Part shown: positions 2,699 to 5,667 of the stretch, piece after piece
Numbering within the stretch: position 1 is the stretch's first letter
Layout of the letters: every line of letters begins with the position of its first letter
Assembly (NCBI RefSeq): GCF_003149145.1
Contig: NZ_QGDQ01000005.1
Span: 62,001 to 126,000, forward strand
Reading direction: 5' to 3'
Length of the DNA stretch: 64,000 nucleotides
Origin: Quadrisphaera granulorum
GTDB lineage: Bacteria; Actinomycetota; Actinomycetes; Actinomycetales; Quadrisphaeraceae
Translations under genes and position numbers: made by a program
Notes under the pieces: model-generated
What the model was told of the DNA's origin: nothing
The model's input: only the letters and a program-made list of their open reading frames with translations
The model's database searches: none

Positions 2699-3910
2699 GT
2701 GGTCGCTGACCAGGGCTGGCGGCGGCGGACCGCCGCGGCGGCTTTCGCCTTCTGGGCCACGATGCTCGGCACCACGTTGCCGACGCCCCTGTACGGGCTC
2801 TACACGCAGCGCCTGGGCCTGACGGCCCTGCTGCAGACCACCGTGTTCGCCACCTACGCCGTCGGCGTCATCGTCGCGCTGATCAGCGCAGGGCAGGCCA
2901 GCGACAGGTTCGGCCGGCGCCCGGTGCTGGCCGTCGGCCTGGGGGCCGCCGCGGCGTCCGCCGTCGTCTTCCTCCTGCCGGTCTCGGTGCCCGGCCTGCT
3001 CACGGGGCGGGTGCTGTCGGGGCTGTCCGCGGGCCTGTTCACCGGTGCGGCCACCGCCCTCGTCGCCGAACTGGTGCCCCACAGTGCGGCGGGGAATCCA
3101 GCGGGGCGTTCGACGCGGACGGCGTCGCTCGTGGCCACCGCTGCGAACATCGGCGGACTCGGCTCGGGGCCGTTGCTCGCGGGCGCTGTCGCGCAGCTCG
3201 GGTGGGCGCCCCTGGTGGTGCCCTACGTGCTGCACCTGGTGCTGCTGGCGCTGGCCGGAGCGGCCCTCGCCGTCGTCCCCGAAACCGTGACCACCCCGCG
3301 GGCGCAGCGACCCCCGTGGCGGCCGCTGCGTCCGGCGGTGCCGCCGCAGACCCGTGCTGCCTTCGTGCCCGCGGCCGTGAGCGGCTTCGCGGGGTTCGCC
3401 TGCCTGGGGCTGTACTCCGCCGCCGAACCGCGCGTGCTGAGCCAGCTGCTGGGCGTCTCGGCGCCGCTGGCCGCCGGGGCGGTCGCCGCACTGATCTTCG
3501 CGGCCTCGGTCTCTGGTCAGGTGGTCACGGCCTCCCTGCCGCCGGCGCGCGTGCTGCCCGCTGGGTGTGCGGCACTGCTCGTGGGCACCGGACTGCTCGC
3601 CGCGAGCCTCGAGCTCGCGTCCCTGCCGCTGCTGCTGCTCGCCACGGTCGTGCTGGGCGCCGCGCAGGGGGCGTGCTTCCGTGCCGGGGTGGCCGAGGTC
3701 GGCGCCTCCGCCCCGCCGCAGCGGCGAGCCGAGGTGGTCTCCACGCTCTTCGTCGTCTTCTACGTGGCGATCTCCCTGCCCGTCGTCGGCGTCGGTGCGC
3801 TCGCCGACACCGCGGGCCTGCGCACCGCCGTCCTCGCCCTGGCGGGGCTGGTGAGCGTGCTCGCCGTGGCCGCGCTCGTGGTGCTCCTCACGCGTCGCCG
3901 CAGGGCTTGA
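2699..3910 (+). CDS. MFS family drug-type exporter
   Basis: 403 residues with twelve predicted hydrophobic segments, the usual size for a 12-TM major facilitator. The loop between segments 2 and 3 reads GQASDRFGRRPVLAVG, which is the MFS motif A pattern (GxxxDRxGRR). A likely role is proton-coupled export of a small compound; the substrate cannot be told. The GTG start has GGGAGG four bases upstream. The gene sits between the tRNA terminator and the sulfur riboswitch and appears to be a single unit. The C-terminus ends in a basic RRRRA tail facing the cytoplasm. Confidence 0.85.
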   Translation: MVADQGWRRRTAAAAFAFWATMLGTTLPTPLYGLYTQRLGLTALLQTTVFATYAVGVIVALISAGQASDRFGRRPVLAVGLGAAAASAVVFLLPVSVPGLLTGRVLSGLSAGLFTGAATALVAELVPHSAAGNPAGRSTRTASLVATAANIGGLGSGPLLAGAVAQLGWAPLVVPYVLHLVLLALAGAALAVVPETVTTPRAQRPPWRPLRPAVPPQTRAAFVPAAVSGFAGFACLGLYSAAEPRVLSQLLGVSAPLAAGAVAALIFAASVSGQVVTASLPPARVLPAGCAALLVGTGLLAASLELASLPLLLLATVVLGAAQGACFRAGVAEVGASAPPQRRAEVVSTLFVVFYVAISLPVVGVGALADTAGLRTAVLALAGLVSVLAVAALVVLLTRRRRA

Positions 3911-3944
3911 CCCGCGCGGGGCGTTGTCCCTACGGTGATCCTCG

Positions 3945-4064
3945 TCGGTCATGAGTGGCAGCGACAAGCCCTGGCTCGCTGTCCAGCAACCCCCCATTCG
4001 CGGCGGGGTGCTCCAGGTGAAGACCGGGCAGGACGCAGCCGTGATCCTGTCAGCGCGAGACCCC
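3945..4064 (+). promoter_or_regulatory. SAM-IV type S-adenosylmethionine riboswitch
   Basis: The stretch has the actinobacterial SAM-IV core: GGTCATGAGTGGCAGCGAC, then CTCGCTGTCCAGCAACC, GGGGTGCTCCAGGTGA and AGACC. P1 is GGTC (3947-3950) with GACC (4022-4025). P2 is TGGCAGCG with CGCTGTCCA. A downstream P5-like helix can form between CAGGA (4029-4033) and TCCTG (4045-4049). The same TCCTGTC can instead pair with GACAGGA (4075-4081), which covers the ribosome binding site of the leader ORF. This suggests a switch acting on translation. Which form SAM favours is not decided from sequence. It lies ahead of a sulfur-scavenging gene, as expected. Confidence 0.88.
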
Positions 4065-4087
4065 ACAGGGGTCGGACAGGAGCTCTC

Positions 4088-4177
4088 ATGAGCCTTCCGC
4101 AGTGCACGCACGAGGCCTTCACCCGGCGTCTCGTGGTCGACCTCGCCCGGACGGCGTCGGCGCGCTGTCGCGCCTGA
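4088..4177 (+). CDS. Actinobacterial sulfur-type leader peptide (29 aa)
   Basis: ATG with AGGAG five bases upstream opens a 29-codon frame. The sequence TRRLVVDLARTASARCRA matches the small 'putative leader peptide' family of actinobacteria, with its pattern RR-x-VDL-x-R-x-x-SA-x-C. Members sit ahead of cysteine, methionine and sulfonate uptake or assimilation genes. Its ribosome binding site is inside the switching helix of the riboswitch, and a pair of competing hairpins follows it, so it probably senses translation as an attenuator. Two Cys codons (positions 6 and 27) may be the sensing codons; this is inference. Confidence 0.75.
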   Translation: MSLPQCTHEAFTRRLVVDLARTASARCRA

Positions 4178-4183
4178 CGCACT

Positions 4184-4214
4184 CCAGCGGGCAGCCCCGC
4201 TGGTAGCCCGCTGG
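4184..4214 (+). promoter_or_regulatory. Two competing hairpins, attenuator-like
   Basis: CCAGCGGG (4184-4191) can pair either with CCGCTGG (4197-4203) or with CCCGCTGG (4207-4214), but not both. The site starts seven bases after the leader peptide stop and is about 90 bases before the monooxygenase start. This is the layout of a translation-coupled attenuator. There is no clear T tract. Confidence 0.5.
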
Positions 4215-4302
4215 TGATTCCGCTCTCGCGGAGCCAGCCGCACGTTCACCGTCGACCACCCCGTGGCGCACGCCTGCGCCCTTGACGACCCCGGAGCACG
4301 AG

Positions 4303-5667
4303 ATGACCCTCCTCAGCGACCCCACGACCACCCCTGACACCCGTTCTGACACCGGTCCGGCCGCCCGGCCTGCCGCCCGGTCGGACCTCGCCGACGGCAG
4401 CCGCCGCGACGGTGCCGGCGGCCCCCGGCCCGCCATCGGCCACCTGCTCGCCGGTGCCGAGCACTGGCGGAAGACCGGCCGTCCCCGCGACGCCGCCGGC
4501 TGGCTGCTGCGTGCCGAGGACGTCGCGGCCCAGTTGCGCCGCGGCGCCGTCGAGAGGGACCGCGCCGGCGGTCACCCCCGCGAGGAGGTCGATCTGCTCA
4601 AGGCTTCCGGCCTGGTGACCCTGCTCGGACCCCAAGAGCACGGTGGCGCCGGTCAGACCTGGGACACCGCGCTGCGCGTCGTACGGACCGTGGCCCGCGG
4701 CGACGGCTCGATCGGCCAGCTCCTCGGCTACCACTACCTGTGGGCGTGGGCCGCGCGCCTGGTCGGCACAGAAGAGCAGATCGCCGCCGTCGAAGAGCTC
4801 TACACCCGCGGCGAGCTGTTCTTCGGCGGCGCGGTCAACCCCCGCGACGGCGACCTCGTCATCACCGAGGACGGCGACGAGCTGGTCTTCCACGGCCGCA
4901 AGTCGTTCTCCACGGGCGGGGTCGTCTCCGACCTCACCGTGCTGGAGGGCGTCATCGACGGCACGGACACCCACGTCTTCGCCATCGTCCCCACCGACCA
5001 GCCCGGCATCGCCTTCGCCGACGACTGGGACAACCTCGGCCAGCGGCTCACCGAGAGCGGCTCGGTGCGCATCGACGGGGTGCGCGTGCCCTGGGCCGCG
5101 GCGGCGGGCTTCGTGAACCGGGCGTTCCAGCCGCTCACCTACAACACCCTGAACGTGCCGACCATCCAGATCGTCTTCGCCAACTTCTACCTGGGCATCG
5201 CCCAGGGGGCGCTCGACCGCGCCGCGGAGTACACCCGCACCACCACCCGCGCGTGGCCCTACGGCGGTGACAACAAGGACCACGCCACCGAGGAGTGGTA
5301 CGTGCTCGAGGGCTACGGCGAGCTCGCCACCAAGCTGTGGGCCGACGAGGCGCTGCTGGACGCCGTCGGCGCCGAGGCCAGCGCGGTGCTCCACGCACCG
5401 CGCGACGAGCTCACCGAGCGCCGGCGCGGGGAACTCGCAGTACGGATCGCGGCGGCCAAGGTCCGCGCCGTCGAGGACGGGCTGGACGTCGCCACGAAGG
5501 TGTTCGAGCTGACGGGTGCCCGGGCCAGCGCCAACCACGTCGGCCTGGACGTCCACTGGCGCAACCTGCGCACCCACAGCCTCCACGACCCGCTGCCGTA
5601 CAAGAAGCGGGAGGTCGGCAGCTTCGCGCTGCTCGACGAGGTGCCCGAGCCCACCTGGTACACGTGA
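4303..5667 (+). CDS. SfnB/DszC-like FMNH2-dependent monooxygenase (acyl-CoA dehydrogenase fold)
   Basis: 454 residues with the acyl-CoA dehydrogenase fold: helical N-terminal domain, beta middle domain (about residues 155-260, with the FSTGGVVSDL stretch near the flavin) and C-terminal helical bundle. Overall it resembles the SfnB/DszC/TdsC branch, which uses reduced flavin and O2 on organosulfur compounds, rather than true acyl-CoA dehydrogenases. Start ATG 4303 is chosen because GGAG lies six bases upstream; a TTG at 4282 is less likely. The SAM riboswitch and leader peptide in front strongly support a role in sulfur acquisition. No flavin reductase or transporter is next to it. Exact substrate unknown. 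Confidence 0.82.
   Translation: MTLLSDPTTTPDTRSDTGPAARPAARSDLADGSRRDGAGGPRPAIGHLLAGAEHWRKTGRPRDAAGWLLRAEDVAAQLRRGAVERDRAGGHPREEVDLLKASGLVTLLGPQEHGGAGQTWDTALRVVRTVARGDGSIGQLLGYHYLWAWAARLVGTEEQIAAVEELYTRGELFFGGAVNPRDGDLVITEDGDELVFHGRKSFSTGGVVSDLTVLEGVIDGTDTHVFAIVPTDQPGIAFADDWDNLGQRLTESGSVRIDGVRVPWAAAAGFVNRAFQPLTYNTLNVPTIQIVFANFYLGIAQGALDRAAEYTRTTTRAWPYGGDNKDHATEEWYVLEGYGELATKLWADEALLDAVGAEASAVLHAPRDELTERRRGELAVRIAAAKVRAVEDGLDVATKVFELTGARASANHVGLDVHWRNLRTHSLHDPLPYKKREVGSFALLDEVPEPTWYT

Follow-up and report, generated by a model that had tools for sequence, protein, structure and literature searches.

Among the RNA devices closest to the one considered here is the SAM/T-box tandem, which couples a SAM off-switch to a serially arranged element sensing uncharged tRNA, as is also proposed below. 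In the table of a tandem-riboswitch review, as far as its available portion goes, the order of SAM element followed by uncharged-tRNA sensor is counted 7 times and classified as NOT A AND B. Riboswitches combined with short upstream open reading frames (uORF) are described from Mycobacterium tuberculosis: at ppe2/metE, a B12 riboswitch controls the translation of a short uORF on which ppe2 depends (PMC11260477, available sections), and at pe20 an Mbox is combined with a translational platform on a conserved uORF and Rho-dependent termination (PMC12810186, available sections). A short ORF with conserved Cys codons and proposed ribosome stalling constitutes the uORFC-8-2 motif before cysS in Rhodobacterales (PMC8632094, available sections). 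SAM-IV elements have been placed before the O-acetylhomoserine sulfhydrylase gene of M. avium, where the wording "leader peptide" does not occur in the available part of the paper (PMC3774663), and the accessible part of a reannotation of S. lividans lists SAM-IV and the metL leader at different loci (PMC8079986).

The locus analysed here lies in a window of 64,000 nucleotides from the actinobacterium Quadrisphaera granulorum, by which we mean the whole stretch of DNA under study, and all its features are on the plus strand. It probably represents a two-input sulfur switch contained in one 5' leader, which would turn the gene on only if SAM and cysteine are both low. As judged from its match to the Rfam model RF00634, the element at positions 3947-4061 is a SAM-IV riboswitch: cmscan aligns it to the full-length model (positions 1-116 of 116) with 98.4 bits and an E-value of 8.8e-17, exceeding the gathering score of 38, and the SAM-IV-type aptamer of the original prediction thus stood up to the Rfam check proposed for it. 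Directly 3' of the aptamer, a short hairpin (GACCCC-ACA-GGGGTC) can be read at 4059-4073, in whose place two orthologues carry GTCCC../..GGGAC. A hairpin often adjoins the 3' side of SAM-IV aptamers past the end of the Rfam model; a stem score of at least 6 directly after the aptamer was found at 67 of 168 SAM-IV sites (L001-L304), compared with 8.4% of mononucleotide shuffles.

SAM riboswitches are numerous in the genus, the window's genome alone giving nine SAM-IV and six SAM-I matches, and a single contig of 67 kb (G002:C79) containing four SAM-IV and one SAM-I match. At one locus (L009, G000:C31:33305-36914) they form a back-to-back control region, with a plus-strand SAM-IV element before an ORF judged by eye to be permease-like and, 107 bases from it on the minus strand, a SAM-I element with a cysteine leader before a rhodanese gene. 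Divergent pairs of SAM riboswitch and leader also occur at G244:C19 and, by coordinates, at G108:C5.

The second element is an ORF of 29 codons (4088-4177; MSLPQCTHEAFTRRLVVDLARTASARCRA) starting 26 bases after the end of the aptamer and preceded by a ribosome-binding site (RBS), AGGAG, at 4078-4082. It resembles the "putative leader peptide" family NF042934, with which it shares the core xRRxHVDLxRxxSAxCR, at an E-value of 5e-4 and with 19.6 bits, which is under the curated cut-off of 27. The predicted likeness to a known leader peptide family holds at this level, the resemblance being to cysteine leaders of actinobacteria. An alignment of 11 leaders displays the core expected of NF042934, including a Cys close to the C-terminal end, and shows M1, R14, D18, L19, and C27 to be invariant; NF042934 is matched at E<=1 by 8 of these 11 leaders (alignment A1), and the Cys-rich leader families Ms4527A and Ms5788A of NCBIfam by six and three of them, respectively. 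The conserved Cys codon is TGT (codon 27, 4166-4168), three codons before the stop, and it is TGT in all 12 of the SAM-IV tandems treated below, three of which are orthologues. Cysteine or methionine supply had been suggested as the signal read by the leader; for this leader type, the candidate regulatory codon that is conserved specifies cysteine and not methionine. Ribosomes would accordingly be expected to stall at the TGT codon when cysteine is low. TGT, the rarer codon (among the 119 Cys codons of 37 window ORFs, which were called crudely, it accounts for 23), is nearly universal for the last Cys of such leaders, being found in 27 of 28 class leaders elsewhere (loci L237-L264, many of them near-identical).

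That the ORF arose by chance, and only the SAM-IV element matters, seems hardly credible. The reading could draw on the sub-threshold NF042934 score and on a modest synonymous excess: the window's leader differs from that of G001 by pS 0.27 and pN 0.17, and from that of G002 by pS 0.25 and pN 0.16, and the excess is absent between G001 and G002 (pS 0, pN 0.02). Against it stand the conservation of the peptide and its TGT codon in orthologues as well as at unrelated loci, and antisense and upstream-sense controls without comparable matches.

The gene behind the leader (4303-5667; translation 4303-5664) codes for a protein with Pfam acyl-CoA dehydrogenase domains and the corresponding fold, which resembles the monooxygenases DszC and SfnB. 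With 264.8 bits against the DszC model NF043015 (equivalog cut-off 850) and 250.5 bits against the SfnB model TIGR04022 (cut-off 430.9), it should be regarded as a homologue only of either enzyme and, by this relatedness, as a likely sulfur-scavenging enzyme; the SfnB/DszC-like target of the original prediction is confirmed to that extent. Its nearest named relative shares 91% identity and is found on NZ_VDMJ01000044.1 of "Streptomyces sp. NP160", a strain which we take to be really Quadrisphaera-like. Among 80 loci of target homologues, a SAM-IV element lies closely upstream in one, that of strain NP160 (L011), and about 800 bases upstream in another (L054). A profile search of the 79 loci with upstream DNA detected the leader at L011 and at L069. 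The latter, from Amycolatopsis pittospori, has the leader MDGIRLTRRRHVDLVRVAGCFCTA alone upstream of the target homologue, with no riboswitch found.

A view on other SAM-IV sites shows that the pairing of aptamer and leader is not confined to this gene. Sequences downstream of 169 SAM-IV sites were read, comprising 101 of the 102 sites from 39 related genomes (G013:C1:516268 was left out) and 68 sites from a class-wide set of 296 genomes. The class sites consist of 28 automatically taken best-scoring ones and 40 picked by hand among about 150 matches listed, mostly for genus diversity, two of them because a leader was already visible beside the riboswitch (G076:C16, a tandem, and G244:C19, a divergent pair). 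The leader profile was built from 11 leaders, namely nine from SAM-IV tandems found by pattern in the related-genome set, one from behind a SAM-I element, and that of L069. It matches downstream in sense at 12 of the 169 sites, always with an E-value of 1e-4 or better, and three of these tandems are outside the training set (G175:C98, G190:C2, and G076:C16, the last pre-selected by coordinates). Three weak downstream matches (E 0.19, 3.1, and 6.4) were left out of this count. No match at E<1 was obtained antisense or upstream in sense at the 169 sites, where the best values were 5.1 and 1.2, respectively, and two upstream-antisense matches represent leaders of divergent genes. The leader starts, as picked by us, lie 15-35 bases after the SAM-IV element in all 12 tandems. 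The profile matches and their controls make a chance pairing very unlikely, and the tandem, as read across the genomes, is a recurrent arrangement in which a gene is preceded by two successive predicted sensors. The predicted succession of aptamer, leader, and sulfur-type gene is therefore borne out, and a combined response to SAM and amino-acid supply gains more support from this recurrence in other genomes than from the window alone. The family's 13 genomes yielded 18 leaders, of which, by coordinates, seven immediately follow a SAM-IV element and four a SAM-I element; note that eight of the 18 are training members chosen for their position, which leaves an unbiased part of three in ten, and that the SAM-I search covered just six of the 13 genomes.

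Leaders of other types also follow SAM-IV aptamers. Micro-ORFs with clustered Cys codons and an RBS whose start lies no more than 70 bases from the aptamer were counted at 13 of 167 sites (two of the 169 had too little downstream DNA) by a criterion set after the listing had been seen, compared with a mean of 0.75 (sd 0.83, maximum 4) in 100 rounds of dinucleotide shuffles. The antisense strand gave one such ORF, and the stretch 400-640 bases downstream none at the 167 sites. Two of the 13 also belong to the 12 profile tandems (G034:C20 and G076:C16), and two weak-looking cases (G008:C2 and G024:C2) were kept in the count. Micro-ORFs before genes judged by eye to be O-acetylhomoserine-sulfhydrylase-like encode MRASLHPLTRCCCR, MRCCPLTRSH, MCCCRMN, and MCCCCRMTRR. 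A set assembled by eye contains leaders ending in CRWRRA before an ABC ATPase gene that looks MetN-like by eye; of the six genus genomes, five have it complete, and in the sixth it is truncated by a contig end. A further set, of MetQ type, in which the window's genome (L002) shows a possible cysteine ORF, was discarded, the ORF not being conserved in the orthologues compared.

Including the monooxygenase gene of the window, the tandem targets are, by domain content, mostly genes of sulfur uptake or assimilation. Ten partial targets scanned with Pfam yielded a rhodanese, a Cys/Met-metabolism PLP enzyme, an NlpA lipoprotein, a family 5 solute-binding protein, a PAPS-reductase-domain protein (CysD-like by eye), a TauE/SafE protein, one protein without a Pfam match (by eye an ABC permease), a luciferase-like monooxygenase, an FMN reductase, and a family 1 solute-binding protein. 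Three of the ten, i.e., the two solute-binding proteins and the one without a match, are generic, and Pfam does not clearly mark them as sulfur genes. Another target was called carbonic-anhydrase-like by eye, and in one tandem (G025:C224) the contig ends before any gene. The distance from leader to gene is 56-226 bases in the ten SAM-IV tandems measured.

Among the 296 class genomes, SAM-IV occurs in 205 and SAM-I in 201, and the leader profile matches in 205 at E<=1e-3, these matches being taken without individual inspection; each of the parts is thus present in more than 200 genomes and therefore widespread. This leader type follows the SAM-IV element at three of the 68 class sites, one of them pre-selected, so the pairing is a minority arrangement as far as these sites indicate. 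No Rfam element was detected at 20 class leader loci scanned, and no leader was found at E<1 behind the 30 best-scoring class SAM-I loci outside the genus, which shows that each part also works alone. One might regard the tandem as two independent regulators sharing a leader: the SAM-IV element would on its own determine the amount or the stability of the transcript, and the leader peptide would contribute a response to cysteine, with no action of the riboswitch on leader translation. The solitary occurrence of both parts, including the 157 of 169 SAM-IV sites at which this leader type is missing, is in line with such independence, as is the folding described below, which gave no consistent link between aptamer and leader. 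It is nevertheless difficult to reconcile with the narrow spacing of 15-35 bases in the 12 tandems, counted from the starts picked by us, and with the SAM-I sister loci, in 12 of 12 of which the closing helix runs into the leader RBS; we consider it unlikely, if the strongest of the alternatives.

The original prediction also included a helix downstream of the aptamer covering the RBS of the leader. On paper, such a pairing is possible between TCCTGTC (4045-4051), the 3' strand of aptamer helix P5, and GACAGGA (4075-4081) at the leader RBS. TCCTGTC is the same in both orthologues, and therefore no covariation is available. Folding of the 12 tandem sites with and without the aptamer yielded no consistent sign for a SAM-dependent exposure of the RBS, and the helix is to that extent not supported. 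In the window, the RBS is unpaired with a value of 0.09 in the full-length fold, compared with 0.39 for the downstream part alone, and the corresponding values of the two orthologues are 0.24/0.16 and 0.25/0.24. The complementarity and the values of the window would also agree with a switch of opposite sign, in which P5 forms upon SAM binding, releases GACAGGA and frees the RBS, so that SAM would favour translation of the leader and, through it, switch the gene off. We regard this as rather improbable, given that the 12 tandems, including even the two orthologues, are inconsistent in this respect, and that the SAM-I sister loci show the other sign. For the preferred reading, in which SAM binding prevents leader translation, the sign is borrowed from these SAM-I loci because the folding of the 12 tandems gave no consistent change; SAM-bound would then mean "off" for the SAM-IV version as well.

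In the S-box, SAM stabilises the helix closing the aptamer. Six genus genomes contain 34 SAM-I matches, 30 of which were read downstream; of 20 loci checked, Rfam assigns all to RF00162, with L362 just below the gathering score. Behind the 30 elements, members of the same leader family occur six times, an 8-residue peptide VSxCMxxR four times, and a poly-cysteine peptide twice. A rule asking for a short Cys-containing ORF with its start no more than 14 bases from the aptamer picks out these same 12 of 30 sites, representing four orthologous groups, compared with 0.92 in shuffles (sd 0.95, maximum 4, 200 rounds); the leaders were first grouped by eye and then recounted by a rule set after that grouping. 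CCATC, whose partner GATGG closes the SAM-I aptamer, is present at all 30 sites, and GATGG is fused to an RBS (GGAGG or GGGAG) at 24 of them, including all 12 with a leader. Since SAM stabilises a closing helix fused to the leader RBS, SAM should block leader translation at these loci. The link from riboswitch to leader translation may thus be read from the sequence for SAM-I and is extended by analogy to SAM-IV. The other 12 sites with the fused element have no such leader, and at least some of them lie directly before a structural gene, which suggests that the fusion of closing helix and RBS is a module acting on the first ORF, whatever its kind. The 8-residue peptides behind SAM-I, namely VSACMPQR (L335), VSSCMPLR (L336), VSSCMTPR (L337), and VSPCMLER (L340), precede a solute-binding lipoprotein gene (family 1 by Pfam for L335) in four genus genomes, with Cys-Met invariant and the Cys codon being TGC in three of the four.

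The spacer between leader and gene (4178-4302) is a candidate Rho-loading region, with 34 C and 24 G in its first 80 bases; the orthologue spacers show C/G values of 45/19 and 43/19. A hairpin with the Cys codon in its loop covers the end of the leader (4154-4180) in both the minimum free energy and the centroid structure. Within 4184-4238, mutually exclusive hairpins can be read: the segment CCAGCGGG(C) at 4184-4192 pairs either with 4196-4203 (through 4184-4191) or with 4206-4214, and as a further alternative 4210-4214 and 4219-4223 may pair with 4234-4238 and 4228-4232, respectively. The two mutually exclusive hairpins of the original prediction are therefore present, and their region folds beyond shuffles (z -2.35 and -2.18 in two runs). 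What did not hold is their status as a conserved attenuator device: the two nearest orthologues have a spacer of 78 bases without these hairpins, giving z values of -0.34 and -0.73 for the same region, and a z of -2 or lower was reached in only two of ten tandem spacers, those of the window and of G190:C2. No intrinsic-terminator-like site, U-tract included, was found in 3800-4400.

These data bear on classical trp-type attenuation, in which the position of the ribosome picks among the hairpins of 4184-4238 and one of them terminates transcription or hides the RBS of the gene. Readable alternative hairpins and a region folding beyond shuffles are what this model would predict, whereas the missing terminator-like site and the hairpin-free 78-base spacers of the nearest orthologues argue against it, and we consider it still more doubtful than a switch of opposite sign. 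A trp-type attenuator with an intrinsic terminator was rejected as a candidate, the 3800-4400 region being free of terminator-like sites and the exclusive hairpins not being conserved. The C-over-G excess in the 80 bases after 24 leaders has a mean of 19.1, compared with a control mean of 0 (sd 7.5) taken from both strands of the window rather than from intergenic DNA; the window's own excess of 10 per 80 bases is weak, as 10% of control windows reach this value. Rho-type attenuation may be tentatively favoured over a hairpin mechanism of the window's kind because a terminator-like site is missing, the hairpins are absent in orthologues, and a C excess follows the leaders.

Taken as a working model, the switch would operate in three steps. 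The SAM riboswitch would act on the first ORF behind it, i.e., the leader, which would remain untranslated in the SAM-bound state. If translated, the ribosome would meet the conserved TGT codon near the stop, finishing and leaving if Cys-tRNA is sufficient, and stalling if it is not. Only a stalled ribosome would keep Rho off the C-rich sequence behind the leader and allow the polymerase to enter the sulfur gene; in the window, the stalled ribosome might instead shift the hairpins. Either an untranslated or a fully translated leader would lead to an early end of transcription. The model presumes that aptamer and leader share one transcript and that Rho acts as the terminator. On a wider scale, the chances are about even that Actinobacteria assembled a modular SAM-by-Cys gate several times, using riboswitches of two classes and leader peptides of three or more types, and that the SAM riboswitches in this gate regulate the translation of a cysteine-sensing leader instead of the gene itself, with expression requiring low levels of both SAM and Cys-tRNA.

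If true, a gate of this kind, responding to SAM and cysteine and found repeatedly, would explain how these bacteria tell their need for methionine and SAM apart from their need for cysteine, and would be a case of a riboswitch whose target is another sensor. Some two dozen natural variants are available for studying how such gates are constructed. Since the Rfam SAM-IV model stops at the aptamer, leader ORFs behind other riboswitches may have escaped notice as well. Combinations of a riboswitch with a ribosome-read amino-acid sensor appear to be little documented among natural RNA devices. No description of a SAM riboswitch combined with a cysteine leader was found in titles and abstracts, most subscription papers lying outside the search, and words beginning with "peptide" or "attenuat" are absent from the main text of the tandem-riboswitch review in its available portion.

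Cysteine-responsive polycysteine leaders, in which the Cys codons of a short ORF regulate the following operon, are reportedly known from mycobacteria through work by Canestrari from 2020; these are said to be titled leaderless ORFs, whereas the ORF considered here sits behind a riboswitch. The uORFC-8-2 motif differs from the window in having two tandem Cys codons and an intrinsic terminator with a U-run, with no riboswitch described in the accessible text (PMC8632094). At ppe2/metE, the uORF acts mainly by termination-reinitiation and no second metabolite is proposed in the available sections (PMC11260477), compared with a leader-gene gap of 56-226 bases in the present tandems. For pe20, the abstract calls the role of the peptide unclear and the available text describes no amino-acid sensing (PMC12810186), unlike the proposal made here. 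In comparison with the SAM/T-box tandem as far as the review portrays it, the second sensor would here be a translated cysteine leader peptide instead of a T-box, the first would be a SAM-IV or SAM-I element in actinobacteria, and the riboswitch would act on the translation of the sensor itself.
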